Below are positions 3,563-20,304 of a stretch of 22,458 nt of DNA, piece by piece. Source of the DNA: a virus; the IMG/VR virus record IMGVR_UViG_3300042295_000240, positions 1 to 22,458 of that record. One strand, given 5' to 3'. Positions within the stretch are counted from its first letter, which is position 1, and every line of letters begins with the position of its first letter. The position numbers and the translations under genes are program-made. Below the pieces are notes generated by a model, which was not told the origin of the DNA, searched no databases, and was given only the letters and a program-made list of their open reading frames with translations.

Positions 3563-5640
<2,078 letters not shown>

Positions 5641-5642
5641 TT

Positions 5643-6056
5643 ATGAAACTCGCAGTTGCTAGTTGGACACACTGGAATCCTGAGACAACAGTAGAATCCT
5701 TACCTGAAACGTCTGAACAGTTAATGGATGTTTTTCGTGACCAACGTGACACGCTTCTAAAAGAATCAGACTGGTGCGTGGGAACAGATACCCCTCTCAG
5801 CCCTGAAGTAGTTGAAGAATGGAAGCAATGGCGGCAACTTATGCGGGACATAACAAAAACTATTAGTTTTGAAGACAATCAGAAATGGATTGAAATACCA
5901 AATCCGCCAGTTATTGGGAGACCTAAAACTTGGATAAACGTTGATTACGATGTTCTTTTAGAAAGAAACGCTCACGTTTTAGAAATCTTAAACAGTGGTG
6001 TTGAGGCTGGGATTTTCCAACCTTACCCATCTGATGGGGGGCATCATGTCCACTAA
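5643..6056 (+). CDS. Tail-fibre-assembly chaperone-like protein, 137 aa
   Basis: The gene starts 2 bases after the fibre stop. Its core, RDQRDTLLKESDWCVGTDTPLSPEVVEEWKQWRQLMRDI (about 34-72), matches the pattern RDxLLxxSDW...PLSxExxxxWxxYRxxLRDI that I know from XkdW-like and tail-fibre-assembly/chaperone proteins encoded directly after fibres. The N-terminus (MKLAVASWTHWNPETT) and the C-terminal tail are not recognised. It probably helps fold or trimerise the collagen-like fibre, or is itself a small tail component. The ending (HHVH) overlaps the next start by 11 bases. The family link is from motif memory and is moderately sure. Confidence 0.72.
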   Translation: MKLAVASWTHWNPETTVESLPETSEQLMDVFRDQRDTLLKESDWCVGTDTPLSPEVVEEWKQWRQLMRDITKTISFEDNQKWIEIPNPPVIGRPKTWINVDYDVLLERNAHVLEILNSGVEAGIFQPYPSDGGHHVH

Positions 6057-6564
6057 AGAGCCAGTCAAGAAATTCAAAGTCCCCAAACAATTAAAGGGAT
6101 ACGGCAACGGTCGTATACCCGCACATGAACTTGCCGACATTACTGGCGGAGGAAAGATGTGGGGTGTTGCCGCTTTTTGGTGGAACCACATGGCCGCTGA
6201 AGCCGCCACAGCAGGGATCTCTATCAAAGGTGTATCAAAGGGATACAGGTCATACGAGGAGCAGGAACGAATGTTTATGGTTCGCTACTCCTCTAAACCC
6301 ACTGGTCGCATACCTGAAGTAACCCGCCGTTGGAAAATGCGTAAGTGGTGGTTACGTAAAGGTAAGGCCCCAAGTGCGACACCAGGGATGTCGAATCATG
6401 GGTGGGCGATGGCCCAGGACATAGAGGTACCTAAAGAAACTTACGATTGGATGTGCAACAATGCACCCCGCTATGGCTTTTATCTACAGGGTCCGTCTAA
6501 ACTACGGAACGGCAAACCAAACCCAGAGTTTGAAGCCTGGCACTGGCAGTTCTGCCACGTATAA
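6046..6564 (+). CDS. M15-family peptidoglycan peptidase (endolysin or virion lysin)
   Basis: The chosen ATG at 6046 follows a GGGGGG run (6036-6041) and overlaps the previous gene; a longer frame from 5995 would begin deep inside that gene. The 172-residue protein has the M15/VanY layout: KGYRSYEEQERMF (~65-77), then MSNHGWAMAQDIEV with zinc ligands H118 and D125, and a terminal EAWHWQF with catalytic E163 and zinc ligand H166. All key residues are present. Such enzymes cut peptide cross-links or D-Ala bonds in peptidoglycan. It has no signal peptide, so release through a holin or packaging in the virion are both possible. Its place among fibre genes slightly favours a virion or late-lysis role. 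Confidence 0.88.
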   Translation: MSTKEPVKKFKVPKQLKGYGNGRIPAHELADITGGGKMWGVAAFWWNHMAAEAATAGISIKGVSKGYRSYEEQERMFMVRYSSKPTGRIPEVTRRWKMRKWWLRKGKAPSATPGMSNHGWAMAQDIEVPKETYDWMCNNAPRYGFYLQGPSKLRNGKPNPEFEAWHWQFCHV

Positions 6565-11437: not shown

Positions 11438-12561
11438 TGCCTGGTGCTAACGGAAACGTCCCCAAGGCGTATCTTGGCGGCACATGGAAAGACTGGAATG
11501 CTGTACAAGGAAAACTTGACGGCACATGGAAACTTTCCTCCGATGTTTACATGAAACATAACGGAGAATGGAAGAAGGTTTGGGTTCGTTTAACTGCCCC
11601 CACTAATGGATCTACAAGTTTGTCTGATGTGACAGCAACCATTTCTTGGACACCTGGAGTGGGGCAAGAGGGATACAAACTTTACCGAAACAATGTTTAC
11701 GTGAAAGATGTGCCCGCTAATGCGACACAAACAACGGACACATTGCCTGCTCTTCAGACAACCTATACATATACGGTTTCTGCTTTTGCTGGCCCGACTG
11801 AAACAGAAAAGATTTCTTGTGGTGCTGGCGTAAGTCAGGGTGTCGGCACACCATCATCATCTACTTCTATTAACAGGGACTGGGGCTATTCGAATAGTAC
11901 GTGGGATGGACAACAGATTCTGTTCTACACTTCTTGTACTGCTGTAACAAACGCAACAAGTTACCAGTGGTCCCTCGATAATGGTTCTACTGCTGGCGGC
12001 ACCGAAGCAGACAGAGATCTAGTTTTCGGTATGAACCAGGATCAGACGTTCTATGTCCGTTGGAGAGCATACAGAACATACCTCGGTGTTACATACTACG
12101 GAGCATGGTCAAACACCAACACTGTTTACGCTGGTAGACCGTTGACACGTAACGCCGCACAGAACTTCGACTACAACAAGACAGTTCGCTTCGATGAAAC
12201 AATCGGTGAAACAGTTAACTTTACTGGTGGTTTCGGAACGGTCATCGACTCTTACGAGTTCCGTGAAGTTGACGCCGTCGGCTCAAGCCTCTTGGCTAAC
12301 AGTGTTCGTCGTGTCACGTTCCGTCGTCCTTCTGGTGCTGGTGGAGACATCGCCATTCCTTACGGGTCATCAACAACATCAGGAACTGGTGATGACGGTG
12401 GAAACTACCGACAGGGACCATTCACGAACTACGTCGATGGTTTCTACGGTGTTAGCACATTCGGTTCATGGTCAGTGGCTTCCACCCCATACGTCACATA
12501 TAAACTACGCTTTACTGGAAGAAGTATCGCCCAAGTAAACATCTCATATAGCATCACGTAG
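11437..12561 (+). CDS. Appendage protein with fibronectin-III-like domain, 374 aa
   Basis: The start ATG shares a base with the previous TAA (TAATG), showing coupling. The N-terminus has two short Gly-Thr-Trp repeats (LGGTWKDWNAVQGKLDGTWKL) and DVYMKHNGEWKKVW, typical of phage tip proteins. Residues ~50-135 (LTAPTNGSTSLSDVTATISWTPG... YKLYRNN... YTYTVSAFAG) fit a fibronectin type III fold. The rest is beta-rich with many aromatic and Gly residues and ends with a strand-like SIAQVNISYSIT. It is probably the distal or receptor-facing partner of the 10550 fibre. No signal peptide or membrane segment. Domain call is by pattern, not search. Confidence 0.7.
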   Translation: MPGANGNVPKAYLGGTWKDWNAVQGKLDGTWKLSSDVYMKHNGEWKKVWVRLTAPTNGSTSLSDVTATISWTPGVGQEGYKLYRNNVYVKDVPANATQTTDTLPALQTTYTYTVSAFAGPTETEKISCGAGVSQGVGTPSSSTSINRDWGYSNSTWDGQQILFYTSCTAVTNATSYQWSLDNGSTAGGTEADRDLVFGMNQDQTFYVRWRAYRTYLGVTYYGAWSNTNTVYAGRPLTRNAAQNFDYNKTVRFDETIGETVNFTGGFGTVIDSYEFREVDAVGSSLLANSVRRVTFRRPSGAGGDIAIPYGSSTTSGTGDDGGNYRQGPFTNYVDGFYGVSTFGSWSVASTPYVTYKLRFTGRSIAQVNISYSIT

Positions 12562-12569
12562 GAGACGCC

Positions 12570-12764
12570 ATGAAAGAATTAGTAGAACAAATCAAACCGA
12601 TAGCCCTGTCTTATGCTCGTGTATTTATCGCCGCATCACTCACCCTGTACCTCGCAGGGGAACGTGATCTTGGTGCCTTGTGGGCCGCTGGACTTGCATC
12701 AGTTTTGCCACCACTTGTCCGTTGGCTTAACCCAAACGACGAAGGTTTTGGCCGACACAATTAA
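12570..12764 (+). CDS. Two-helix membrane protein, putative holin, 64 aa
   Basis: A good AGGAG (12561-12565) precedes the ATG. The 64-residue product has a short charged N-terminus (MKELVEQIKP), a hydrophobic helix (IALSYARVFIAASLTLYLAG), a turn (ERDLG) and a second helix (ALWAAGLASVLPPLVRWL), ending in NPNDEGFGRHN. Two helices and a polar C-tail match small holins, which open the membrane for lysins. It follows the last fibre gene and precedes other membrane miniproteins, as expected for a lysis cassette. Similar proteins ending VLPPLLRWLNPND are known to me from aquatic actinophages, usually unannotated or called holin. Confidence 0.7.
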   Translation: MKELVEQIKPIALSYARVFIAASLTLYLAGERDLGALWAAGLASVLPPLVRWLNPNDEGFGRHN

Positions 12765-12765
12765 T

Positions 12766-12795
12766 TTGTCCGTAGGGCTGGACACGTAGTACCAT
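12766..12795 (+). promoter_or_regulatory. Promoter for a leaderless transcript of the 12802 gene
   Basis: TTGTCC (12766-12771) and TACCAT (12790-12795) form -35 and -10 boxes with 18 bases between. The -10 ends exactly 6 bases before the ATG at 12802 and no ribosome binding site is present, so the mRNA should begin at or near the start codon. It sits in the 37-base gap after the putative holin gene. Confidence 0.5.
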
Positions 12796-12801
12796 CACGG
12801 T

Positions 12802-13233
12802 ATGGGAAACAACGAAGACGAAAGATCCGCCGCTTACAATCGTCATATCTATTTTGAGTTCGCCAAAATTGTTCAGAATTATAACGACACTGCACACCCA
12901 GAACATGACGATATTGAATTTGTTCCCGCAACCATTGATGAATTAGATGGTTTAGAGTTGGATATGAACGGAGAGAAGTTCGATCCGCTTGATGAGTTCA
13001 ACGATTTCATTGTTGATTTGATCTCTGCTATTCAAGAGTATGGTTCCTTCGAGGACATCCCAGACGACTACGAATTTGATGCTCCTGACGACGTGGTTAT
13101 TGACATAATCTTCCGAGACGACCAAGAGAAGTGTGACAGTCAAGATTGCAAGTTGTGCAATAGTGAAGGCCAGGAAAAGAACTACATAATTATTCATGTA
13201 TTCAAAAAGAAGGATGGCCCAGACATCTTCTGA
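12802..13233 (+). CDS. Acidic hypothetical protein, 143 aa
   Basis: I do not recognise this protein. It is very acidic: Asp and Glu make up roughly a third of the residues (for example DELDGLELDMNGEKFDPLDEF and FEDIPDDYEFDAPDDVVIDI). Near the C-terminus is EKCDSQDCKLCNSEG, a three-Cys cluster (C-x4-C-x2-C), followed by a strand-like NYIIIHVFKKKDGPDIF. The start has no ribosome site and sits 6 bases after a -10-like TACCAT. Strong acidity could indicate a DNA-mimic or protein-inhibitor role, but that is speculation. It interrupts the run of small membrane proteins and has its own promoter, so it may be an independently expressed accessory gene. Confidence 0.72.
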   Translation: MGNNEDERSAAYNRHIYFEFAKIVQNYNDTAHPEHDDIEFVPATIDELDGLELDMNGEKFDPLDEFNDFIVDLISAIQEYGSFEDIPDDYEFDAPDDVVIDIIFRDDQEKCDSQDCKLCNSEGQEKNYIIIHVFKKKDGPDIF

Positions 13234-13240
13234 ACTGTGC

Positions 13241-13246
13241 TATGGT
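13241..13246 (+). promoter_or_regulatory. Possible extended -10 box upstream of the 13293 gene
   Basis: TGCTATGGT (extended -10 TGn plus TATGGT at 13241-13246) lies in the 59-base gap before the next gene. The -35 position is not convincing. A GGTGGGA (13281-13287) ribosome site serves the ATG at 13293. An intervening ATG at 13259 would encode only ten residues and is not annotated. Confidence 0.33.
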
Positions 13247-13292
13247 TCACCACGACCTATGATTAAAGTACTTTTCTACACGGTGGGATGAC

Positions 13293-13412
13293 ATGACTAA
13301 GTGGATAATCGCTGGATGGATGACGATTGGCATTGCCTCTGTCGCCGTCGTTATTAGTATTTATCGTGCGATTATCAAGATCGAAGACGGAAGCGATTGG
13401 TTCTACGAATGA
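13293..13412 (+). CDS. Single-span membrane miniprotein, 39 aa
   Basis: The ATG is preceded by GGTGGGA. The product begins MTKWIIAGWMTIGIASVAVVISIY, one uninterrupted hydrophobic helix, followed by a short charged tail (RAIIKIEDGSDWFYE). Its stop overlaps the start of the next membrane protein gene (ATGA at 13409-13412), so they are translated as a pair. Paired small membrane proteins downstream of a putative holin suggest antiholin, second holin or spanin-like helper. The sequence itself shows only membrane topology. Confidence 0.72.
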   Translation: MTKWIIAGWMTIGIASVAVVISIYRAIIKIEDGSDWFYE

Positions 13413-13642
13413 CTATCGCACAATGGATCATCACCGCTGGTGCAGTAGTAGGCGCACTAGGAATTATCTTTCGCACACTCGTTAAGCCTGTTGTCTCGTG
13501 GGCTCGACGAATAGAAAAAGCAGTATCAACCGTAGAACAAAACATGAACAATAACGGTGGATCATCGCTACGAGATGCAATCGACCGTATCGAACGCCGA
13601 CTCAACGAAGTCGAAGAAATAATTACCAAACCTAAAAAGTAA
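13409..13642 (+). CDS. Membrane protein with C-terminal coiled coil, putative holin-like, 77 aa
   Basis: I start at ATG 13409 (ATGA overlap) rather than 13397, which is inside the previous gene. Residues ~4-27 (AQWIITAGAVVGALGIIFRTLV) form one membrane helix. A basic stretch follows (KPVVSWARRIEKAV), then a heptad-rich tail (LRDAIDRIERRLNEVEEII) and KPKK. One N-terminal span plus a cytoplasmic coiled coil and positive end resembles DUF2746-type and other one-span holin families of actinophages. It is probably part of the lysis cassette with the two preceding membrane proteins. Confidence 0.72.
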   Translation: MTIAQWIITAGAVVGALGIIFRTLVKPVVSWARRIEKAVSTVEQNMNNNGGSSLRDAIDRIERRLNEVEEIITKPKK

Positions 13643-13652
13643 AACAGAAGAT

Positions 13653-13679
13653 AAACACACCCTCATGGTGGTATGTTTT
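13653..13679 (+). terminator. Weak candidate terminator after the lysis genes
   Basis: AAACA (13653-13657) pairs with TGTTT (13674-13678) and CACC (13658-13661) pairs with GGTG (13667-13670), with a three-base bulge on the 3' side and a five-base loop. The 3' arm ends in TTTT. The stem is AT-rich and bulged, so activity is uncertain. It sits at the boundary between late and following genes, where a terminator would be expected. Confidence 0.33.
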
Positions 13680-13687
13680 CCTGTCTT

Positions 13688-13822
13688 ATGACACAGCAAG
13701 ACATTGACATTCTCATCCAATACCTGCGCAAGGTAGTAGTCCCAGCAAACGACCACGAGGCTTTCCTGAAGGCTTTTGAGCGGCTCCAATCCTTGAGATC
13801 CCGCCCCAAACAGGCCGCTTAG
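13688..13822 (+). CDS. Small helical hypothetical protein, 44 aa
   Basis: The frame opens with ATG 13688 and reads MTQQDIDILIQYLRKVVVPA, continuing NDHEAFLKAFERLQSLRSRPKQAA to TAG. It is predicted mostly helical and mildly basic at the end. There is no clear ribosome site; an extended -10-like TGGTATGTT (13669-13677) lies ten bases upstream, giving a leader of only a few bases. The regular codon pattern and neat fit between neighbours make it a likely gene. Function unknown. Confidence 0.55.
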   Translation: MTQQDIDILIQYLRKVVVPANDHEAFLKAFERLQSLRSRPKQAA

Positions 13823-13827
13823 GGCTC

Positions 13828-13840
13828 GGCTAATCTAGCC
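13828..13840 (+). promoter_or_regulatory. Palindrome covering a leaderless -10 box
   Basis: TAATCT (13831-13836) ends exactly 6 bases before the ATG at 13843, the same geometry as at 1525 and 12802. The box lies in the middle of a perfect 13-base inverted repeat, GGCTA-ATC-TAGCC. A repressor binding this palindrome would block the -10 directly. No -35 match was found. Confidence 0.48.
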
Positions 13841-13842
13841 CC

Positions 13843-13965
13843 ATGACCACAATGAAGAACTGGCTGACATGCCCAACCTGCGACTTTGGCTGGCATGTTA
13901 GCGAGGGCAGATTCTGTCCTCATTGCAAAACGGAAGGTGACACAAGTGACGGATCAGAAGATTGA
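13843..13965 (+). CDS. Zinc-ribbon miniprotein, 40 aa
   Basis: This short frame encodes MTTMKNWLTCPTCDFGWHVS followed by EGRFCPHCKTEGDTSDGSED. Two C-x2-C knuckles (C10/C13 and C25/C28) fit a compact zinc ribbon, with an acidic tail. There is no ribosome site; the -10 box six bases upstream indicates leaderless expression. The end overlaps the next gene by 20 bases. Zinc ribbons of this size usually contact nucleic acid or a protein partner such as RNA polymerase, but no specific function can be read from the sequence. Confidence 0.7.
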   Translation: MTTMKNWLTCPTCDFGWHVSEGRFCPHCKTEGDTSDGSED

Positions 13966-14227
13966 ACCAACCGAATTTCCAATTGTTGTTATCCGTTGGG
14001 CTGATGCTCATTGCGGTCATGGTGGATGGCAAGAACTAGAAGACTACGAAGACGACGGAGAAGTAATTGTTACCACCGTTGGCTACATGGTTCCCCACGA
14101 CATGCCAGGCGGAAAGAAAGATCATCTCACTGTGTGGCAAACCATCACTGAAGGTGAAGGCATTCATCCGTTCCATATCCCAGCGGGAATGGTACGTGAA
14201 GTGACTCTTGTCACAAATCCAAAATAA
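13946..14227 (+). CDS. Hypothetical protein, 93 aa
   Basis: I choose GTG 13946, which has GGAAGG (13931-13936) upstream and gives a start MTDQKIEPTEFPIVVIRW; the longer frame from 13886 overlaps the zinc-ribbon gene heavily. The protein has alternating strand-like segments (IVVIRWADAHCGHGGW, EVIVTTVGYMVP) and a C-terminus ending VREVTLVTNPK. Small proteins with IRWxDA...GW and a VGYMV strand are, as I recall, common in actinophages and may have a compact beta fold, but have no established function. It is followed by a 76-base gap with a good promoter. Confidence 0.72.
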   Translation: MTDQKIEPTEFPIVVIRWADAHCGHGGWQELEDYEDDGEVIVTTVGYMVPHDMPGGKKDHLTVWQTITEGEGIHPFHIPAGMVREVTLVTNPK

Positions 14228-14241
14228 ATGTGTAACAGAAC

Positions 14242-14270
14242 TTGACCTTGGCACACCCCTTATGTAAAGT
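14242..14270 (+). promoter_or_regulatory. Sigma70-type promoter for the recombination/replication operon
   Basis: TTGACC (14242-14247) and TAAAGT (14265-14270) are separated by the ideal 17 bases. The predicted start is near 14277, leaving a leader of about 27 bases before ATG 14304 with the ribosome site AGAAGGGGG (14291-14299). It lies in an intergenic gap directly before the exonuclease gene and probably drives the whole forward cluster down to WhiB. Confidence 0.72.
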
Positions 14271-14303
14271 GACCGACAATCACTCAACATAGAAGGGGGC
14301 CTT

Positions 14304-15260
14304 ATGGCGCTTCACCGTTATCGGATAACTAAACCAACACATGGTTCAGGCGACTGGCTAAATGCACGGTTCTGGGATGAGAAAGGGAACAAGCGGGTTT
14401 CAGCCTCAGCGGCCGCCGCTATCTACGGACTCCACCCATTCGTAGCAATGGACACCTACGCCGCTGAACTCATGTCAGAGGTACCACCAACACCAGTACC
14501 ACCCAACGAAGCGATGGAGCGAGGCAACCGTCTCGAAGACCCCATCATGCAGTGGGCATCTGACCGTCTCGGTATTTCGTACATCACACCAGAGGAAATG
14601 TTCGTAGCAGAATCCAAAGGTGGTGCTCGAATGATCTCTACCCTTGACGGTTTCTACGAAGATGGAGACACCCGCAAGGTTCTCGAAATCAAAACCACCA
14701 CCAAGAACTGGGAAGGAATCCTTCCTGATTACTGGCGCATCCAAGGCGTACAGCAAGCGATCTGTGCAGACGTCACAGAAATCACATGGGCAATCTTTGA
14801 CCCATCACTGAAGTTGTATACCCACGTTCAGACAGTGACACCTGCTGAACAGGCAGAACATATTTCCGCTGTCGAGAAATGGTTGAACGCTATTGATCTT
14901 GGTATGACACCAGTCGGTGTTAAGTGGTCATACGAAACCATCTCGACACGCTACTCACGTTCCGAACCTAAGACAGTAGAACTTTCAGATGATGTCCTTG
15001 AACTCATCGAGCAGTTACGTCATGTCAAGTCAGAAGCCAAGGCATACGCCGAGATGGAAGACCAACTCAAAGCAAAGATTTGCGAGTTGATGGGAGACGC
15101 TGACACCGCTACAGTGAATGGTGTAACTGTTGCGACATGGAAGGGTCAGACACGAGAGTCGCTAGACATCAAGGCATTCAAAGCCGCACACCCAGACATC
15201 GCACGCAACTTCAGCAAACAAGTAACCACAAGAACATTCCTAGTAAAGGGGAACAAATAA
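14304..15260 (+). CDS. YqaJ/lambda-exonuclease-family DNA exonuclease
   Basis: The 318-residue protein has the PD-(D/E)XK core of viral alkaline exonucleases. It contains RVSASAAAAIYGLHPF (31-46), the motif ERGNRLEDPIMQWA with E79, STLDGFYE with catalytic D115, and LEIKTTTK with E128 and K130, followed by RIQGVQQAIC with conserved Gln. These residues cut one DNA strand 5'-3' to leave a 3' tail. The C-terminal third (LIEQLRHVKSEAKAYAEMEDQLKAKI) is helical. The next gene, overlapping by one base, is a strand-annealing protein, the standard two-component recombination pair. It supports recombination-dependent replication or end repair in the phage. Confidence 0.9.
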   Translation: MALHRYRITKPTHGSGDWLNARFWDEKGNKRVSASAAAAIYGLHPFVAMDTYAAELMSEVPPTPVPPNEAMERGNRLEDPIMQWASDRLGISYITPEEMFVAESKGGARMISTLDGFYEDGDTRKVLEIKTTTKNWEGILPDYWRIQGVQQAICADVTEITWAIFDPSLKLYTHVQTVTPAEQAEHISAVEKWLNAIDLGMTPVGVKWSYETISTRYSRSEPKTVELSDDVLELIEQLRHVKSEAKAYAEMEDQLKAKICELMGDADTATVNGVTVATWKGQTRESLDIKAFKAAHPDIARNFSKQVTTRTFLVKGNK

Positions 15261-15958
15261 TGGAAAAGAAATCAATCGGCCTCGATGAGGTCCTCAACAA
15301 GTACGGAGTACCAGACCCGAAGATTGTTGGCAAGTTGCCGAAGGGTGGTCAGCAGTTGTCCTTCGTCGGCCACGCTGACGTAACAAAAATGCTTCTCGAA
15401 GTGGACAGTGGATGGACATGGGAGCCAGTGGCCTTCGATGCTGATGGTCTACCTGCCTACCGTGTAGAGAACGGCATGGCACACATGGCTGGATGGATGA
15501 CAGTACATGGGGTACGCCGTCTCGGTGTCGGCTCATGCCTACCTAACAAGCCTGACTTAATGAAGGAACTAATAAGCGACCTCATTAGGAACTGCGCCAT
15601 GCGATTCGGGTTTTGTCTTAGCCTTTGGACGAAGCAGGAATGGGAAGACTTGGAACATAGCCCCGCACATGCACCCAACGGTCCCGTGCCAAACAAGAAA
15701 GATACTGGCCCACGTGTCAGTAAGGCAGTGGAGATCGCACAACGTGCTACCGCTAAAGCGGCCGCTCAAGAAGCCAACGCTGAACTTTCCGAAGAGCAAC
15801 GTAACCAGTTCGTTACAGCCTGCACTAAAGCGAACCTTGATCCAGAGGTAGTGGCAAAGAATGCTGGCCTTGACTGGACTAAAGGAATCAAGGAAGCAGA
15901 CCTTGGCGCATTGCGTGAATCATTCAAAGACCTCAAAGCATTTCAAGAAGGAGCGTAA
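15260..15958 (+). CDS. Single-strand DNA annealing protein (Erf/Rad52-like)
   Basis: The true start is ATG 15260, sharing a base with the exonuclease stop (TAATG) and preceded by AAAGGGGA; the longer frame from 15137 is inside the exonuclease gene. The 232-residue protein has QLSFVGHADVTKMLLEVDSG, WMTVHGVRRLGVGSCL and LISDLIRNCAMRFGFCLSLW. This hydrophobic/aromatic pattern and the LGVGS...EL..D..RNAAMRFG segment are what I associate with Erf/Rad52-like annealing proteins of actinophages. The C-terminus (~165-232) is Ala/Lys/Glu-rich and likely flexible or partner-binding. It would coat the 3' tails made by the exonuclease and pair them with complementary strands. Confidence 0.8.
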   Translation: MEKKSIGLDEVLNKYGVPDPKIVGKLPKGGQQLSFVGHADVTKMLLEVDSGWTWEPVAFDADGLPAYRVENGMAHMAGWMTVHGVRRLGVGSCLPNKPDLMKELISDLIRNCAMRFGFCLSLWTKQEWEDLEHSPAHAPNGPVPNKKDTGPRVSKAVEIAQRATAKAAAQEANAELSEEQRNQFVTACTKANLDPEVVAKNAGLDWTKGIKEADLGALRESFKDLKAFQEGA

Positions 15959-15963
15959 GAACG

Positions 15964-16155
15964 ATGCCTAACAAAAGAACAGTCGACCCTGATTCAGCCG
16001 AAGCATCAGTACGGATCATTGGTCTTCGTGTAACAGAGAAACAGTTGAAGCAGATTGCTGACCTGTGCGAGTCGAGGGGGGTGAAGCGGAGCAGATTGTT
16101 CCGTGACCTCCTTATCGAAGCATGGAATCGTGACCAGATTGAGGAGCCGTTCTAA
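15964..16155 (+). CDS. Ribbon-helix-helix DNA-binding protein, 63 aa
   Basis: The 63-residue product has a short flexible start (MPNKRTVDPDSAEA), a strand (SVRIIGLRVTEK) and two helices (QLKQIADLCESRG, RSRLFRDLLIEAWNRDQ). This order matches ribbon-helix-helix (CopG/Arc-type) dimers, which bind palindromic operators through a paired beta strand. It is probably a transcriptional regulator of the surrounding operon or of the minus-strand arm. It overlaps the next gene by one base (TAATG). Its operator is unknown; the repeated GTCTTAAGAC palindrome in this window is one candidate. Confidence 0.78.
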   Translation: MPNKRTVDPDSAEASVRIIGLRVTEKQLKQIADLCESRGVKRSRLFRDLLIEAWNRDQIEEPF

Positions 16156-16343
16156 TGGCTACCGATTATGTACATATCGATACGGCATCGGAGATGGTGC
16201 GAGAGGTTCAGGAGAAACTAGATAACGCATTGAAAGACAACACCCGTGCGTGGGAACGTGTCGCTCAACTTGAATCAACTGTTTCTGTTTTGTCTGCTGA
16301 GTGTTCGAGACTTACGTCAGAACTTGCACGTACCTACACATAG
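16155..16343 (+). CDS. Coiled-coil miniprotein, 62 aa
   Basis: The start ATG shares a base with the preceding TAA. The protein (MATDYVHIDTASEMVREVQE...) is nearly all helix, with heptad-like leucine/valine spacing in LDNALKDN and VAQLESTVSVLSAECSRLTSELA. It likely forms a parallel coiled-coil dimer. No catalytic or metal-binding motif is visible. It may act as a partner or oligomerisation factor for a neighbour; function unknown. Confidence 0.75.
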   Translation: MATDYVHIDTASEMVREVQEKLDNALKDNTRAWERVAQLESTVSVLSAECSRLTSELARTYT

Positions 16344-16351
16344 GGGGAGTT

Positions 16352-16537
16352 GTGACTACTGGTTATAAAACTCCTCCAACTGTGGAGGCGATGGCTGATG
16401 CGATCGAACATATCTTTAAGACTTATTCGAAGGGGGAACTTGTCCCGTATGAGGATTCGATTATTCCTACGCATGAGTTCTTTCTTGACTTATGTCAGAG
16501 GTTGCTGGCCGTAGAGAAAGCGTTAAGCGGTGAGTAA
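16352..16537 (+). CDS. Hypothetical protein, 61 aa
   Basis: I set the start at GTG 16352, just after GGGGGAG (16343-16349), giving MTTGYKTPPTVEAMADAIEH; the frame open from 16301 lies in the coiled-coil gene. The product is short, acidic and helical, with EHIFKTYSKGELVPY, IIPTHEFFLDLCQRLLAVEKALSGE. It ends inside the start of the next gene (GTG at 16530 lies before its TAA). No family recognised. Confidence 0.68.
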   Translation: MTTGYKTPPTVEAMADAIEHIFKTYSKGELVPYEDSIIPTHEFFLDLCQRLLAVEKALSGE

Positions 16538-16865
16538 GGCTAAACAGAAAGGCACTGCCGCTGAGACAGCAGTTGTGAAGTACCTGAAAGACAATGGGTT
16601 CCCTTATGCTGAGCGTCGTGCACTGCATGGCATCAACGACAAGGGTGACATCACTGGGTGTGGGCCTGTTGTCTTCGAGGTGAAGGATCACGGCACGTTG
16701 AAACTTAGTGAGTGGGTGTCCGAACTTAAGGAAGAGATTGCTAACGCTGAGGCCAACACTGGAACAGTGGTTGCTAAGAAGCGTGGCACGTTAAAGGTTG
16801 AGGATTGGTATGCAGTTTTACCATTCGGATTATTTGTTGAACTACTAAAGGAAGCAGGATACTAA
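16530..16865 (+). CDS. Holliday-junction-resolvase-like PD-(D/E)XK nuclease, 111 aa
   Basis: Translation starts at GTG 16530, overlapping the previous stop. The protein shows a compact resolvase layout: KQKGTAAETAVVKYLKDNGF with E12, then RALHGINDKGDITG with D40, and VVFEVKDHG with E50 and K52, the E-x-K pair of the PD-(D/E)XK fold. Basic residues near the start (KAKQKG) could contact DNA. The order E...D...ExK in about 55 residues matches archaeal Hjc-like and phage resolvase-like nucleases. It probably cuts branched DNA produced by recombination and replication before packaging. It overlaps the next gene by one base (TAATG). Confidence 0.82.
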   Translation: MSKAKQKGTAAETAVVKYLKDNGFPYAERRALHGINDKGDITGCGPVVFEVKDHGTLKLSEWVSELKEEIANAEANTGTVVAKKRGTLKVEDWYAVLPFGLFVELLKEAGY

Positions 16866-17011
16866 TGGAAAATGAAGAAGAAAAAGAAGTTACAGAAAAG
16901 ACATTCGTTGAATCCGTAATTGAATCGGTTGACTTCGTAGTCAACATGATGAACAACGGCAAGGTTGATCCGCTTAAGGTTTACCCACCTGGCAGATACC
17001 AAGGCGACTGA
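16865..17011 (+). CDS. Small acidic hypothetical protein, 48 aa
   Basis: The frame starts at the shared base of TAATG after the resolvase gene and encodes MENEEEKEVTEKTFVESVIE followed by SVDFVVNMMNNGKVDPLKVYPPGRYQGD. The N-terminus is highly acidic and the middle is an amphipathic helix. It ends one base before the TTG start of the next gene. No family recognised. Tight packing on both sides supports it as a real gene. Confidence 0.66.
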   Translation: MENEEEKEVTEKTFVESVIESVDFVVNMMNNGKVDPLKVYPPGRYQGD

Positions 17012-17012
17012 C

Positions 17013-17426
17013 TTGAAGAAACCTTTCGATGTTGGCTTGTATCTGGCTGATGACAATGCGAAGTTCGCAATCATCGACTGGCTACATGCCAATAACTTCT
17101 ACGCTTGGGTTAACCCTGACCAATATGGGATTGATGTTCTTGCATTTAAGGACTGGTCTGATTATGGTTTTGAAGTAGAGGTGAAACATAATTGGAAGGG
17201 GAAAGATTTTCCATTTGGAACTGTGCACTTCTCTGCTCGTAAACAGAAGTTCATTGCACCTAATCATTACTTCACAATGTTGAATGATGATCGGTCTTAT
17301 GTTCTCGTTGTTGATGGCGAGACGTTGGCGCAGGTTCCTGTCGTAAGTAAGCAAACCAAGTACACATCTGATGAGCAGTTCATTGCTGTTCCGATTGGTA
17401 AGTGCGAGATATTTCGGCTAGACTAA
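17013..17426 (+). CDS. Putative PD-(D/E)XK-fold nuclease, 137 aa
   Basis: I place the start at TTG 17013, one base after the previous stop, with AAGG upstream (17001-17004); an ATG at 16965 would lie inside the preceding gene. The N-terminal half has DVGLYLADDNAKFAIIDWLHANNF. The key segment is QYGIDVLAFKDWSDYGFEVEVKHNW, where D41 and E56-V-K58 sit in the right order for a PD-(D/E)XK active site on consecutive strands. KDFPFGTVHFSARKQKF follows, and I recall similar FPYxTVHIPxRKxKF segments in marine phage proteins of unknown function. It may be a structure-specific or restriction-like nuclease. The assignment rests on motif spacing. Confidence 0.65.
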   Translation: MKKPFDVGLYLADDNAKFAIIDWLHANNFYAWVNPDQYGIDVLAFKDWSDYGFEVEVKHNWKGKDFPFGTVHFSARKQKFIAPNHYFTMLNDDRSYVLVVDGETLAQVPVVSKQTKYTSDEQFIAVPIGKCEIFRLD

Positions 17427-17427
17427 C

Positions 17428-17457
17428 TTGATCCGTTTCACATTTCGGAGGTAGGTA
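17428..17457 (+). promoter_or_regulatory. Possible promoter for the lysozyme gene
   Basis: TTGATC (17428-17433) and TAGGTA (17452-17457) are 18 bases apart in the 73-base gap before the lysozyme gene. The -10 is a weak match. A very strong ribosome site AAAGGAGG (17488-17495) precedes ATG 17500, so good translation is expected whichever promoter supplies the transcript. Confidence 0.35.
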
Positions 17458-17499
17458 TAGAGAGATACACGTCCTTATCGTCCTAACAAAGGAGGCCCC

Positions 17500-18003
17500 A
17501 TGCGAAAACGCATACTGACCCCACTCATATTCATCGCAACCCTTATCCCTACAACCCCCGCATTGGCCTCTCAGACGGCCTCTCAGCCCTTCAAATGCCC
17601 GAAGGCTATGCGTATAGCCCTAGAGGTGGGCTTCCGAAAGAAAGACCTCAAAACCCTCGATCGAATCGTGTATCGAGAATCCAAGTGCCAGTCCAAAGCA
17701 GTCGGCTGGAACTACCGCAAACCCCTCACCCATAAAGATTGCAAACTGAAACCTTGGAAGCAGTACCGCAAATGCAAAGCAGTCAAGTCAGCAGACTTCG
17801 GGCTCACTCAAATCAACGACCGCTCTTGGGTTACATACTTAAGACAGAAGGGAATCATTAACACCGTCGATGATCTACTCAACCCAGTCGTCAACCTGAC
17901 CGCCGCTAAAGCGCTCTATGACTATTCTCTTGACAAGGGACATCACGCATGGAAACAATGGGATACAAAGAAACCAAACGGTTCTGGCAACGTGTCTCGA
18001 TAG
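17500..18003 (+). CDS. Secreted SLT-type lysozyme / lytic transglycosylase
   Basis: The 167-residue protein starts with a Sec signal peptide (basic MRKR, hydrophobic ILTPLIFIATLIP, cleavage likely after ALA at 23). The mature part has IVYRESKC with catalytic E60 and SADFGLTQIN (97-106), the two hallmarks of goose-type/SLT lysozyme folds. C33, C63, C81 and C92 could form disulfides outside the membrane. It cleaves the glycan strands of peptidoglycan. Unusually, it lies in the replication cluster, far from the lysis cassette, with its own strong ribosome site, so an early role in cell-wall remodelling or exclusion is possible. Its last 18 residues (from ~150) are encoded in DNA shared with the HNH gene and may be altered. 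Confidence 0.85.
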   Translation: MRKRILTPLIFIATLIPTTPALASQTASQPFKCPKAMRIALEVGFRKKDLKTLDRIVYRESKCQSKAVGWNYRKPLTHKDCKLKPWKQYRKCKAVKSADFGLTQINDRSWVTYLRQKGIINTVDDLLNPVVNLTAAKALYDYSLDKGHHAWKQWDTKKPNGSGNVSR

Positions 18004-18377
18004 GTGACCCTGAAGATTGCTGGGAATGGAAAGGCGGACTACGTGGTGACGGATACGGACAGTTCTATGTCTGGGGTAAACACCGTGCAGTACACCGCTT
18101 CTCATTCTTTATCGCAAACCTTTACTGGCCTCCTGTCGTAAGACACACATGCGACAACCGTCGATGCGTCAACCCACACCATCTCAAAGGGGGAACACAA
18201 TCAGAGAACATGCAGGACATGGTGGAACGTGGACGACACTTCCATAAAAACAAAACTCACTGCCTATACGGGCATGAATACACAGAAGAAAACACTTACA
18301 CTCGACCAGACAATTCACGAGAATGCAGAACTTGTAGAAGGGAAAGAGTCAATGGAAAAAACGATCTGGACTTGTGA
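17949..18377 (+). CDS. HNH homing-type endonuclease
   Basis: ATG 17949 has AAGGGA (17935-17940) eight bases upstream. The 142-residue protein has FWQRVSIGDPEDCWEWKGG, GYGQF...GKHRAVHRFSF and RHTCDNRRCVNPHHLKGGTQSEN, the HNH_3-type core in which His residues bind the metal and attack DNA. NMQDMVERGR is a common C-terminal motif of these enzymes. A further HCLYGHEY...CRTCRRER segment could bind zinc. Such genes are often mobile and cut related phage genomes. The first 55 bases overlap the end of the lysozyme gene in another frame, consistent with insertion there. The end overlaps the next gene by 26 bases. Confidence 0.88.
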   Translation: METMGYKETKRFWQRVSIGDPEDCWEWKGGLRGDGYGQFYVWGKHRAVHRFSFFIANLYWPPVVRHTCDNRRCVNPHHLKGGTQSENMQDMVERGRHFHKNKTHCLYGHEYTEENTYTRPDNSRECRTCRRERVNGKNDLDL

Positions 18378-18492
18378 AAGGTGTGGCATCAGGGTTACTC
18401 TCTATGTCACGCCAACACAGGCACCAACACATGTCTGCTCTAAGGCAGTCAATAAAACCAAACCACTAAAGAAAGAAGGGGAAACCCAATGA
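18352..18492 (+). CDS. Small zinc-binding protein, 46 aa
   Basis: I choose ATG 18352, with GAAGGGAAAGAG upstream, giving MEKTIWTCERCGIRVTLYVT; the frame open from 18229 runs through the HNH gene. C8-x2-C11 and H27-x-C29 are possible zinc ligands (WTCERCG...PTHVC), and the C-terminus is Lys-rich. Proteins of the form WTCxxCGxxVxxxVxPTxxPxHxC are, in my recollection, frequent in actinophages and of unknown role. Its stop overlaps the SSB start (ATGA), implying coupling. Confidence 0.75.
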   Translation: MEKTIWTCERCGIRVTLYVTPTQAPTHVCSKAVNKTKPLKKEGETQ

Positions 18493-18890
18493 ACCACATC
18501 ACTATCCACGGCAACGTGGGTTCCGACCCAGAACTGAAGTTCTCAGCAAGCGGCATGGCCATCGCTGAGTTCTCAGTAGCAGACACCTACGGCAAAGACG
18601 ACAAGAAGAAAACAACATGGCACAACGTCATCGTGTTCGGATCTCTCGCAGAGAACTTCGTCGCTTCAGCAACCAAAGGCAACAGCGTTATCGTCCATGG
18701 ACGTTACGAGGTTGAGGAATACACCAAGAAGGACGGCACTAAAGGCAAGTCTGTCAAAGTTGTTGCTGACGAAATCGGTATGTCAGTACGTTGGGATCGT
18801 TGGGTCAAAGACCAGACAGATGCAGTGATGCAGAAGATCGGCAACGTCTTCCCTAATGCACGCCCAGCGTCAGACTTCGAGGATTTCTAA
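18489..18890 (+). CDS. ssb: Single-stranded DNA-binding protein
   Basis: The 133-residue protein is a typical bacterial/phage SSB. It begins MNHITIHGNVGSDPELKFSA, continues AIAEFSVADTYGKDDKKKTTWHNVIVFGSLAENFV, and then has KGNSVIVHGRYEVEEYTKKDG, which together form the OB fold. The short C-terminal part ends ASDFEDF, a minimal acidic/aromatic tail of the kind SSBs use to recruit replication and repair enzymes. It is shorter than cellular SSBs because the Gly-rich linker is missing. It protects single strands made during replication and by the exonuclease. ATG 18489 overlaps the previous stop. Confidence 0.93.
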   Translation: MNHITIHGNVGSDPELKFSASGMAIAEFSVADTYGKDDKKKTTWHNVIVFGSLAENFVASATKGNSVIVHGRYEVEEYTKKDGTKGKSVKVVADEIGMSVRWDRWVKDQTDAVMQKIGNVFPNARPASDFEDF

Positions 18891-19139
18891 ATGGACTTGT
18901 CGAAGATCCACTTCGATGAATGGATGGAGATTGGCCTGATGAGAGGGTTCGTCGGGCCACCCGTCTGTTCAACGCATGACGGTATTCCATACACCGCCGA
19001 AGAAGAACAAGAGTTCGAAGAAGGATTCGATCCATGTGTTCATGTCATAAGACCGTACAGTTCATTAGAGGAAAAGAAAAGTGTCGAAGAAAACCATCCG
19101 CCAACAACATGGAGAAACCCACTCGTTAGCGGGGGCTGA
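18891..19139 (+). CDS. Conserved actinophage hypothetical protein, 82 aa
   Basis: The ATG directly follows the SSB stop, with GAGG (18879-18882) as ribosome site. The product reads MDLSKIHFDEWMEIGLMRGF and VGPPVCSTHDGIPYTAEEEQEFEEG, then DPCVHVIRPY and a polar tail. I recall proteins with GPPVCxxHDGxPxTxxE...GxDPCxHxxRxY in many actinophage genomes without a function. Two Cys and two His could bind a metal. The C-terminal 59 bases overlap the next gene in another frame. Confidence 0.78.
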   Translation: MDLSKIHFDEWMEIGLMRGFVGPPVCSTHDGIPYTAEEEQEFEEGFDPCVHVIRPYSSLEEKKSVEENHPPTTWRNPLVSGG

Positions 19140-19416
19140 GATATGCATCGAGGCGTATGACCTTATTACGGGAGACCGTAACAACGATTACGCACACCCG
19201 TATGACGACTACTCAAAGGTGGCTTCCATCTTTGAAAGTCTGTCGGGGGTATCTCTAAGTGTTGAGGAGGCAGTGTTGTTCCCTCTCGCTATGAAACTTG
19301 CACGGATGCGCACAGCACGTGAGAACAATCGGTGGCACCACGATTCTGTCGTGGATGCCATCGGTTATCTCGGCTGTCTCAGCATGATTAACGAACGAAA
19401 GAGCATCGTTGAGTGA
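19081..19416 (+). CDS. DUF6378 / MazG-like protein, 111 aa
   Basis: Translation starts at GTG 19081, with GAGG (19069-19072) upstream, inside the end of the previous gene. After a polar start (MSKKTIRQQHGETHSLAGAE) comes DLITGDRNNDYAHPYDDYSKVASIFESL and then VEEAVLFPLAMKLARMRTARENNRWHHDSVVDAIGYLGCLSMI. This all-helical pattern, with GDRxxDYGxPxxxF early and a DxxGY near the end, is that of DUF6378-type phage proteins related to MazG nucleotide pyrophosphohydrolases. It may adjust nucleotide or alarmone pools during infection; the biochemical activity of this subfamily is not established. Confidence 0.8.
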   Translation: MSKKTIRQQHGETHSLAGAEICIEAYDLITGDRNNDYAHPYDDYSKVASIFESLSGVSLSVEEAVLFPLAMKLARMRTARENNRWHHDSVVDAIGYLGCLSMINERKSIVE

Positions 19417-19594
19417 CGGGCTCTGGCAATTTACACGGGCACACCCCGACTGTACGCACTGCGGGACAGTAGAACGGGCGATCGAGCGCTGGCCACAATC
19501 GGTTCACGATACGTGTCCGTGTATCTGCCATCAACACAAAACAACAAACGCAAAACTAGAACTTAAGAAAGCAAAAAGGGGAAGAAGAAAATGA
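19409..19594 (+). CDS. Small Cys/His-rich protein, 61 aa
   Basis: It starts at GTG 19409, overlapping the previous stop by 8 bases. The protein contains HPDCTHCGTVERAIERW and HDTCPCICHQH, a C-x2-C plus C-x-C-x-C-H-x-H cluster that could hold zinc, followed by a basic tail (KLELKKAKRGRRK). The tail might contact nucleic acid. No family recognised. Its stop overlaps the start of the WhiB gene (ATGA at 19591-19594), so the two are coupled. Confidence 0.72.
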   Translation: MSDGLWQFTRAHPDCTHCGTVERAIERWPQSVHDTCPCICHQHKTTNAKLELKKAKRGRRK

Positions 19595-19875
19595 TTTGGT
19601 TTGAAAAGGCCGCATGTGCAGGGATAGCGAGGATTGACCCGACAATCTTTTTCCCTGACGTAGACCGAGGACAGACTGGCCCTCACTGTTGGGATCAAGC
19701 ACGGGCTATCTGTCGTGAGTGTGTCGTAAGACATGAGTGTCTTGAGTACCAGATGAAGTTCGAGGAAGAGTCAGGCCGTCGTGACGGGATGTGGGGTGGC
19801 TACACACCCAAGGAGCGGGAGCAGTTGTTTCAGGAACGGATAAGGCTCCAGCCACGGGGAAGGGGAAACCCATGA
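19591..19875 (+). CDS. WhiB-family iron-sulfur transcription factor
   Basis: The 94-residue protein has four cluster-ligand cysteines in the WhiB arrangement: C9, then C41-x2-C44-x5-C50 (AICRECVVRHECLEY). These would bind a [4Fe-4S] cluster. DPTIFFPD (16-23) and GMWGGYTPKERE (66-77) are the other family signatures; the Gly-Trp turn normally contacts the principal sigma factor, followed by a basic DNA-contacting tail (RIRLQPRGRGNP). An extra Cys at 33 is not one of the canonical four. WhiB proteins occur only in actinobacteria and their phages. It likely redirects host or phage transcription, perhaps together with the CRP-type promoter in the opposite arm. Confidence 0.92.
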   Translation: MIWFEKAACAGIARIDPTIFFPDVDRGQTGPHCWDQARAICRECVVRHECLEYQMKFEEESGRRDGMWGGYTPKEREQLFQERIRLQPRGRGNP

Positions 19876-19928
19876 CTGGAGCCGATCTGATGCTAGCAGT
19901 TATTTATCCGATTTGTTTTATCTCATAG
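19872..19928 (+). CDS. Possible hydrophobic micropeptide, 18 aa
   Basis: ATG 19872 overlaps the WhiB stop (ATGA) and has GGGGAAGGGG (19857-19866) upstream. It encodes MTGADLMLAVIYPICFIS, hydrophobic after the first residues. Its end overlaps the last 25 bases of the convergent gene. The good ribosome site and coupling are the only support; it could equally be chance. Confidence 0.28.
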   Translation: MTGADLMLAVIYPICFIS

Positions 19929-20197
19929 CGGGATTTGTAGTAGACCGAACAGTTCATTGCTTCTGACTCTGCCCTGTCTAAAGTGTTAAAGGTTTGTGCT
20001 TCGTGGATTGAAGTTGTCCAGCGCCAGACCTCCTCGAAGTCGTAGCGGAAGTAGTAATGCCCACCTCCTGCCTTAAGTCTGACGATGACGTACTTCTTAG
20101 GTTCTGGTACTGGAGTCCTTAGAACTCGGTGCTCCAGTAGTCTTCGTTTATATCTGCGCACGATGGACAGATGTCTTTTCCTAGTCGCCGTTGCCAT
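19904..20197 (-). CDS. Basic hypothetical protein, 97 aa
   Basis: I start at the ATG at 20197 (minus strand), with AAAGGGGA a few bases upstream, giving MATATRKRHLSIVRRYKRRL; the frame open to 20275 lacks a site and overlaps the neighbour more. The N-terminal 35 residues are strongly basic. The remainder (KYVIVRLKAGGGHYYFRYDFEEVWRWTTSIHEAQTF) looks like a small alpha/beta domain with many aromatic residues, ending SRYEIKQIG. It overlaps the upstream zinc protein gene by 79 bases in a different frame. No family recognised. It is the last gene of the minus-strand arm, facing the WhiB gene across a convergent junction with no visible terminator. Confidence 0.68.
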   Translation of the reverse strand: MATATRKRHLSIVRRYKRRLLEHRVLRTPVPEPKKYVIVRLKAGGGHYYFRYDFEEVWRWTTSIHEAQTFNTLDRAESEAMNCSVYYKSRYEIKQIG

Positions 20198-20304
20198 TGG
20201 TTCCCCTTTGCCTGTTTCCATACCCAGCGTGGTTGGCTCCCCGTAAGTATCGAGATACGAGCGCACTCGTCGCACCGTATCCGATACTCAGCGAAGATGC
20301 TCAT
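20119..20304 (-). CDS. Zinc-ribbon-like protein, 61 aa
   Basis: The ATG at 20304 overlaps the TGA of the upstream membrane protein gene (ATGA) and follows GGAG; the frame open to 20403 is not needed. The product has MSIFAEYRIRCDECARISIL, then a Trp/Gln/Arg-rich middle, and DICPSCADINEDYWSTEF. C11-x2-C14 and a second C-P-S-C pair make a plausible zinc ribbon. Function unknown. The 79-base overlap with the downstream gene is unusually long for this genome. Confidence 0.7.
   Translation of the reverse strand: MSIFAEYRIRCDECARISILTGSQPRWVWKQAKGNQWQRRLGKDICPSCADINEDYWSTEF

Follow-up and report, generated by a model that had tools for sequence, protein, structure and literature searches.

The 22,458-nucleotide stretch of viral DNA analysed here (the window) contains at 17500-18003 (plus strand, marked + below) a gene for a predicted secreted muramidase, and comparison with relatives indicates that uncultured, probably actinobacterial phages reserve a single slot at this place for an exported wall-cutting glycosidase, with the catalytic domain alternating between a lysozyme and an Rpf-type domain. 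We consider it slightly better than an even bet (probability about 0.55) that the product of the slot gene is an accessory endolysin exported by Sec and comparable to Tgl of Kayvirus, a reading drawn from sequence, a structure model and analogy. A value of 0.6 had been given to it before the peptidase partners were checked, and it was lowered because one of the two partner types, type b, gave weak support (see below).

The first-pass annotation had described a secreted lysozyme with a signal peptide, four cysteines and a ribosome site of its own, and all of these were found in the window. The gene begins with ATG, encodes 167 aa and is preceded by the Shine-Dalgarno sequence AAAGGAGG (17488-17495, +); the assignment as a c-type-lysozyme-like muramidase is a prediction from the ORF, its relatives, a profile and a structure model. 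Residues 1-23 (17500-17568, +) read MRKR, a hydrophobic stretch (peak 13-residue Kyte-Doolittle mean 2.26) and an AxA site, ALA/S, which by pattern is typical of a cleavable-type signal peptide. A SAR endolysin was ruled out by the AxA site after the hydrophobic stretch, a judgement from pattern only. The cysteines are residues 33, 63, 81 and 92; the first two were present in 39/39 aligned members, Cys81 and Cys92 in 17/39. Glu60 (codon 17677-17679, +), the putative catalytic acid, was conserved in 39/39 members and aligned with the ES motif of c-type lysozymes, and Asp99 (codon 17794-17796, +), the putative second catalytic residue, aligned with their D-x-G and was found in 36/39, the remaining three having a gap. 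These alignment positions are the two catalytic positions of c-type lysozymes. Trp154 was kept in all 39, and a wall-binding domain is absent.

Family searches with the window protein stayed below the Pfam cut-offs (SLT_3, 23.2 of 27 bits; SLT, 19 of 21.3 bits) and gave no match in PHROGs or NCBIfam, and the lysozyme of relative L024 scored over the SLT cut-off (26 of 21.3 bits). The profile of the 39 members (alignment A9) matched c-type lysozymes and EtgA among solved structures, down to 3.8e-7 against PDB lysozymes. The AF2 model had a mean pLDDT of 87.5, with residues 31-150 confident (block means 96-99), 151-160 weaker (81) and 161-167 poor (43). Foldseek with this model returned animal lysozymes as best matches, with probabilities mostly of 0.97-1.00 and TM of about 0.5-0.63 on target length, at a best E of 2.1e-3 and no match at 0.001 or below. 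The predicted lysozyme fold, catalytic Glu and second acid place the enzyme in the c-type/SLT lysozyme superfamily; the earlier label of SLT-type thus holds at superfamily level, but by profile, structure model and Glu/Asp positions the c-type lysozymes are nearer. A chance ORF is unlikely, since other viral contigs contain one near-identical copy and further relatives of 37-70% identity. A cellular gene as origin was rejected after a genome scan, in which 58 pattern-matching stretches led to one weak relative, on a MAG contig.

Upstream of the lysozyme lies a gene that we label PD-(D/E)XK-nuclease-like (16965-17426, +) for its conserved D..EVEVK pattern; it had no Pfam or PHROG match, and many relatives carry it ahead of the slot. 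Downstream are an HNH endonuclease gene (17949-18377, +), a 46-aa protein with C-x2-C, here called zinc ribbon, which starts inside the HNH gene, adjoins SSB in relatives and belongs to no family found in Pfam or NCBIfam (18352-18492, +), and SSB (18489-18890, +; PF00436, 1.4e-25). The host is probably an actinobacterium, because the window carries a WhiB gene (PF02467, 1.2e-14) and its capsid protein has its best matches in the phage collection among Streptomyces phages (up to 44% identity), with Vibrio and Bacillus phages also matched. whiB has been linked to actinobacterial hosts (PMC6802176), and the hosts of the relatives were likewise inferred from WhiB. Tandem WhiB pairs were seen in L158, L159, L160 and L161, both L160 copies being confirmed by Pfam.

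The place of the gene was compared by a scan around SSB that covered the best 80 of 146 relatives, all uncultured contigs with many near-copies across samples, and three of the 80 were cut off at a contig end. A secreted wall glycosidase preceded the (HNH)-zinc ribbon-SSB block in 77/77 loci in view, 26 of them with the lysozyme and 51 with an Rpf-type domain. Among seven Rpf-type slot proteins scanned for PF06737 (Rpf), four were over the cut-off (L124, L108, L147 and L167), two were below it (L101 and L114) and L098 had no match; the window lysozyme was not assigned to PF06737 by Pfam. The Rpf-type profile and model matched solved RpfE/C/B structures, with a best Foldseek E of 1.4e-3.

Close pairs indicate how the two types replace each other. 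The lysozyme locus L126 is 95-97% identical to the Rpf loci L124/L132 over 151 bases ending at base 65 of the gene, and identity of about 91% returns from near the gene end. DNA homology between L128 and L134, and between L111 and L112, likewise stops 65 bases in, where the signal peptide ends, and returns at or near the end of the gene; between L111 and L110 it stops 39 bases into the slot gene. As judged from these alignments, near relatives exchange the mature domain only, the leader and signal peptide being retained. At least nine lysozyme/Rpf changes were counted on an SSB tree, seven of them forced by supported branches; the tree was built from SSB, and recombination adjoining SSB would also be counted as a change. 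Its 72 rows came from the SSB scan plus 17 more loci, rows alike in SSB sequence and labels being merged and SSB fragments of less than 100 aa left out; two contigs occur twice (L024/L099 and L025/L100).

The sole match for three slot-protein queries in the phage collection was DSL-LC01, metagenome-assembled according to the title of PMC10611076, in which a VanY gene is found on the strand opposite the lysozyme, at a distance of about 0.6 kb. A literature search, mostly of titles and abstract openings, brought up no account in which we recognised the slot, and a term search of the available text of two aquatic actinophage papers (PMC10202952 and PMC6802176) turned up no mention of wall enzymes. 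In the other phage contigs L044, L039, L054 and L068 an Rpf-type domain (PF06737 over the cut-off) and the same lysozyme domain occur in one protein, that of L039 also with a weak PG_binding_1 match.

The leader of the slot gene is a concrete candidate for a control element. AAAGGAG was conserved across the 10 slot-gene leaders aligned, and in 52/61 distinct 80-base slot leaders a minigene was found, consisting of a Shine-Dalgarno sequence, a start codon at -40 to -43 (ATG, once TTG), one or three more codons (mostly three) and a stop, with TAA, TGA and TAG all used; L153 and L176, for which no start was assigned, and repeated leaders were dropped from this set. After leaders were collapsed to less than 75% identity and ATG was required, the minigene remained in 17/23 (8/12 lysozyme and 9/11 Rpf), for an expectation of 0.2 from shuffles. 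Examples, each with its own Shine-Dalgarno sequence about 40 nt before the enzyme start, are L126:2983-2997, L111:2923-2937 and L098:2927-2941. It was found in 0/102 leaders taken from six other genes, a set that includes some coding sequence, and, since 0/22 leaders of distant lysozyme relatives had it, the minigene belongs to this locus. The leader in the window (17427-17499, +) has a second SD-like GGAGG at 17447-17451 and lacks the four-codon minigene of the relatives. No RNA pair was predicted in the leader. That the minigene acts by re-initiation or attenuation is a guess; re-initiation is the subject of PMC2268962, which proves nothing for the minigene.

A second wall enzyme of the M15 type had been noted in the window and is indeed present, as a VanY gene at 6043-6564 (+; PF02557, 3.9e-13) that is a candidate canonical endolysin. 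Before it, the gene at 3904-5640 encodes a long protein with collagen repeats (PF01391) and a phage tail collar domain (PF07484). Two small membrane proteins were considered holin-like by size and hydropathy. The first (12570-12764, +; 64 aa) has two hydrophobic stretches and belongs to no named family in Pfam or PHROGs; the second (13397-13642, +), which we label DUF2746-like, gave a sub-threshold match to PF10874 and weak PHROG matches, and its gene adjoins the peptidase gene in relatives. The lysozyme had been called remote from lysis genes, which is right for VanY, 11.5 kb away in the window, but less so given these two holin-like ORFs.

Relatives with this locus have a candidate peptidase and small membrane genes about 4.5-6.5 kb upstream of the slot on the same strand. 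Inspection of the upstream regions of 20 relatives found the candidate peptidase beside small membrane proteins in 19, the exception being L264, where the contig ends. The peptidase is either VanY or a protein of about 170 aa (type b, alignment A7; for instance L256 and L272) that replaces VanY between the same neighbours, as in L255 compared with L256. In most of the upstream regions L255-L274 a Thr-rich protein whose N-terminus resembles a signal peptide was also seen near the small membrane and peptidase genes, and it is a possible wall-spanning lysis partner.

Type b is called a candidate peptidase, its M15 signals being weak. None of the six type-b proteins searched with Pfam had a match over the cut-off, Peptidase_M15_4 reaching an E of 0.11-0.13 in three; a stretch S-x-H-x2-G-x-A-x-D is common to type b and the VanY group, with a profile-comparison probability of 8% over 34 columns; the L015 protein had a weak endolysin PHROG match (0.0086), and a profile search gave no PDB match. 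As a family that has no curated counterpart, type b could possibly be a new endolysin type.

The peptidase search covered 80 records, and 14 further loci were left out. VanY scored over the cut-off in 25 records and type b was present in 36; 19 had neither, and none had both over the cut-off, although G055 has type b and a sub-cut-off VanY stretch. The 19 records with neither extend no further than 5.5 kb beyond the slot on its upstream side. In the wider set of 82 entries (81 loci and the window) a VanY or type-b match was found in 38, at 11.5 kb in the window and within 6 kb in the other 37. Slot and peptidase types were paired as lysozyme with VanY in 24 records, lysozyme with type b in 4, Rpf with VanY in 1 and Rpf with type b in 32 (61 records), an association with a raw Fisher p of 8e-12 that is confounded by ancestry. 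On the SSB tree, by eye, both genes switch in the same direction in four sister contrasts, namely the window and L098 (weak branch support), the L153 and L136 groups, the L154 group and its Rpf neighbours, and L119 and L134; the slot alone switches in L111/L113 and L130/L131, and the peptidase alone in L190/L191 and L024/L025. This pattern of sequences suggests that the slot enzyme and the peptidase work together.

An accessory endolysin accommodates these features best. Its support consists of the signal-peptide pattern, the lysozyme fold, both catalytic positions, the conserved place before (HNH)-zinc ribbon-SSB, the recurrent exchange of the mature domain for an Rpf-type glycosidase behind a retained leader and signal peptide, and one candidate upstream peptidase, VanY or the weakly M15-like type b, in each of the 61 records reaching that far. 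The exported glycosidase would accumulate in the wall, restrained by the energised membrane, until the holin collapses the membrane potential, when it would act on the glycan and the peptidase on the peptides. If this is so, the phages would have a two-enzyme lysis scheme of an exported glycosidase and a holin-released peptidase. Several points count against it: the gene lies among recombination and replication genes, 11.5 kb from VanY in the window; VanY could act in the virion, given that its best PHROG is the peptidase stretch of a tape-measure family; the lysozyme has no wall-binding domain, and the holins were assigned by size and hydropathy. The weak M15 signals of type b, and the part that ancestry may have in the pairing of slot and peptidase types, also weigh against it.

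The first-pass annotation had argued that export without a holin suggests a role before lysis, such as weakening the wall or blocking other phages. On this reading early export would loosen the wall or keep other phages from adsorbing or bringing in their DNA. The argument from a missing holin fails, since holin-like genes are present and Kayvirus Tgl is an exported accessory endolysin that awaits the holin (PMC7150955); export therefore does not imply a task before lysis. The signal peptide and the position beside recombination and SSB genes are compatible with such a role, and Kayvirus tgl is itself under a host-type promoter (PMC7150955), but nothing found in this analysis favours it. Repeated exchange with Rpf-type domains argues for wall cutting of a general kind and against specific exclusion. 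As for timing, a pattern scan of 12500-20300 placed all 11 terminator-like sites on the minus strand and no promoter-like site immediately ahead of the lysozyme, so that co-expression with upstream genes is possible, as far as such patterns tell. We regard a dedicated role before lysis as unlikely, if still the strongest competitor of the accessory endolysin.

A further step down in probability is a phage-borne growth factor, in which an Rpf-like exported glycosidase would keep or bring actinobacterial cells into growth and so provide more productive hosts. The Rpf-type domain does fill the slot in 51/77 loci (SSB scan, best 80 of 146 relatives) and matches solved Rpf structures, and host rpf genes rise in Rhodococcus under phage WC1, for which the authors suggest a benefit to the phage (PMC10986025). 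However, the window and 26/77 loci of the same scan have a lysozyme instead, and Rpf domains are also muralytic enzymes (PMC1084345). Were the Rpf side to matter, phages would carry the dormancy-breaking enzyme of their hosts. Equally speculative is a combined proposal of a timed wall-signal gene of actinophages, in which the minigene would gate translation of an exported lysozyme or Rpf glycosidase. Before lysis this enzyme would loosen the wall and, in the manner of Rpf, maintain growth of infected cells or of dormant actinobacteria nearby, leaving the phages live hosts; at lysis it would team up with the peptidase that the holin releases.

The end of the lysozyme gene requires separate consideration, as its last 18 residues had been attributed to creation or alteration by an inserted HNH gene. 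The HNH ORF does begin 55 bases inside the lysozyme ORF (17949-18377 and 17500-18003); the next ATG, at 17958, would give an overlap of 46 bases, and its Met was kept in the four HNH copies aligned. Both possible starts lie in the +2 frame within the codons for W151-x-Q-W154 (17949-17961, +), a placement seen in the sequence and in relatives. Lying after the lysozyme and ahead of the zinc ribbon, HNH takes its start codon from the W-x-Q-W codons. The HNH protein was over the HNH_3 (PF13392) cut-off (25.2 of 24.8 bits) and matched phrog_826 (1.1e-34), and the gene is at the same position in L024, L025, L038 and others. Comparison with HNH-free relatives had been proposed as the refuting test, and these have the same enzyme through W-x-Q-W, usually with the next Thr. 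Lysozyme conservation stops at Trp154, and the last ~11 residues (157-167; 17968-18000, +) are a variable tail that is an out-of-frame reading of the downstream gene, as the alignments and the low model confidence indicate. With a pLDDT of 43 for residues 161-167, the tail would lie outside the fold. An HNH-made C-terminus was therefore rejected up to residue 156 and retained for the tail: the extreme end has been altered, and 18 residues have not been created.

The tail beyond Trp154 varied from 4 to 59 residues in the 11 members read, several distant members ending two residues past Trp154, and in L024/L025 the lysozyme frame extends 193 nt into the HNH gene. The likeness of the tails PNGSG and PNGSAG may be chance, because they are read from different downstream genes. 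In L038, on the same contig as L014, the first HNH codons (MENKQ) are the lysozyme's own end in the HNH frame. A microhomology at CGGTTCTG is a candidate joining point of the HNH gene.

HNH was present in 61 and absent from 16 of the 77 loci, three more being cut off (SSB scan, best 80 of 146 relatives). In the HNH-free loci L003-L013, L027, L029 and L030 the order is lysozyme, zinc ribbon and SSB, some loci ending early. The zinc-ribbon gene overlaps the lysozyme by 46-61 nt, depending on the start codon chosen, in L003-type loci, L027, L160 and L161, and in the L003-type loci and L027 its +2-frame start coincides with, or slightly precedes, an ATG within the lysozyme Q-W codons. The overlap is 11 nt in L029, L030, L176 and L177, in another frame in L029/L030. 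Within the SSB scan (best 80/146) the zinc ribbon was overlapped in 5/10 HNH-free lysozyme loci, and no overlap with HNH was found in 43/45 Rpf and 13/16 lysozyme loci with HNH (56/61 in total), counts for which gene starts were assigned by script and which include some loci with DNA methylase genes in between. HNH-free relatives of the same type have the overlap and most HNH carriers do not, so the overlap tracks the lysozyme type rather than HNH. In L033 an Endonuclease_7 gene (PF02945, 2.5e-23) takes the place of HNH, from 3235, with a GTG start in the lysozyme Q-W codons. The W-x-Q-W spot thus appears, from the sequences compared, to be used for the start codon by three gene kinds: zinc ribbon, HNH and Endonuclease_7.

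The HNH gene probably encodes a free-standing, mobile endonuclease, having an HNH domain and being present or absent at one site among relatives. It has probably long been resident at the locus, because its divergence resembles that of its neighbours: identities between the window and L024, L025 and L038 were 76, 74 and 57% for HNH, 70, 67 and 54% for the lysozyme (the last over 69 residues only) and 84, 82 and 56% for SSB. DNA methyltransferase genes were observed between the secreted enzyme and HNH in L115, L118, L120, L122, L143, L171, L173 and L188 (N6_N4_Mtase in L115 and Dam in L188 by Pfam, the remaining six by eye). The junction between secreted enzyme and HNH looks like an insertion hot spot.

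It has also to be asked whether the lysozyme is a decaying relic whose overlap and C-terminus were generated by HNH insertion. Residues 157-167 derived from HNH DNA and the 193-nt extension in L024/L025 would fit, as would a promoter-like match (10/12) at 17930-17959, in the end of the lysozyme gene and at the HNH start, although such matches are fewer than in shuffles (4 in 12500-20300, for 8.2 expected). This is very improbable, as the overlap and the end of the fold are identical in HNH-free relatives, the catalytic residues are preserved and HNH has diverged as much as its neighbours. Least credible of all is a virion or entry lysin borne in the particle, for which the predicted wall hydrolase would be suitable, but the enzyme has a cleavable-type signal peptide and the family loci place its gene between recombination genes and SSB, away from tail genes.

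Several parts of the locus resemble known systems. HNH genes inserted out of frame in phage methylase genes (PMC11855218) likewise lie in another frame with their start codon inside the host gene, but in the window the overlap with the lysozyme is confined to the first 46-55 bases of HNH. Fold and the Glu and Asp catalytic positions are common to the window lysozyme, c-type lysozymes and bacterial EtgA (PDB matches); in contrast to these, the window enzyme is encoded by a phage, is about 16-22% identical to them in structural alignments and belongs to a family with an extra loop carrying Cys81/Cys92 in 17/39 members. The exchange of domains recalls the displacement of actinobacterial Rpf by firmicute Sps (PMC1084345), also secreted muralytic proteins of similar architecture in which the catalytic domain is replaced by an unrelated family; that displacement is between bacterial phyla, whereas exchange in the phage slot is repeated and among close relatives.

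The nearest parallel for the proposed accessory endolysin is Kayvirus Tgl (PMC7150955), which is exported and muralytic and lyses S. aureus only once nisin depolarises the membrane. Tgl has an AxA signal peptide, as predicted by pattern for the window enzyme, and both are lysozyme-superfamily glycosidases. Kayvirus has a separate canonical endolysin and a holin, and tgl is not far from lysK and the lysis genes, yet its promoter is of the host type; in the window the partners are inferred. Tgl is IsaA/SceD-like and belongs to other phages of another host group, whereas the phages described here alternate the catalytic domain with one of Rpf type and have an endonuclease and a zinc-ribbon gene downstream.
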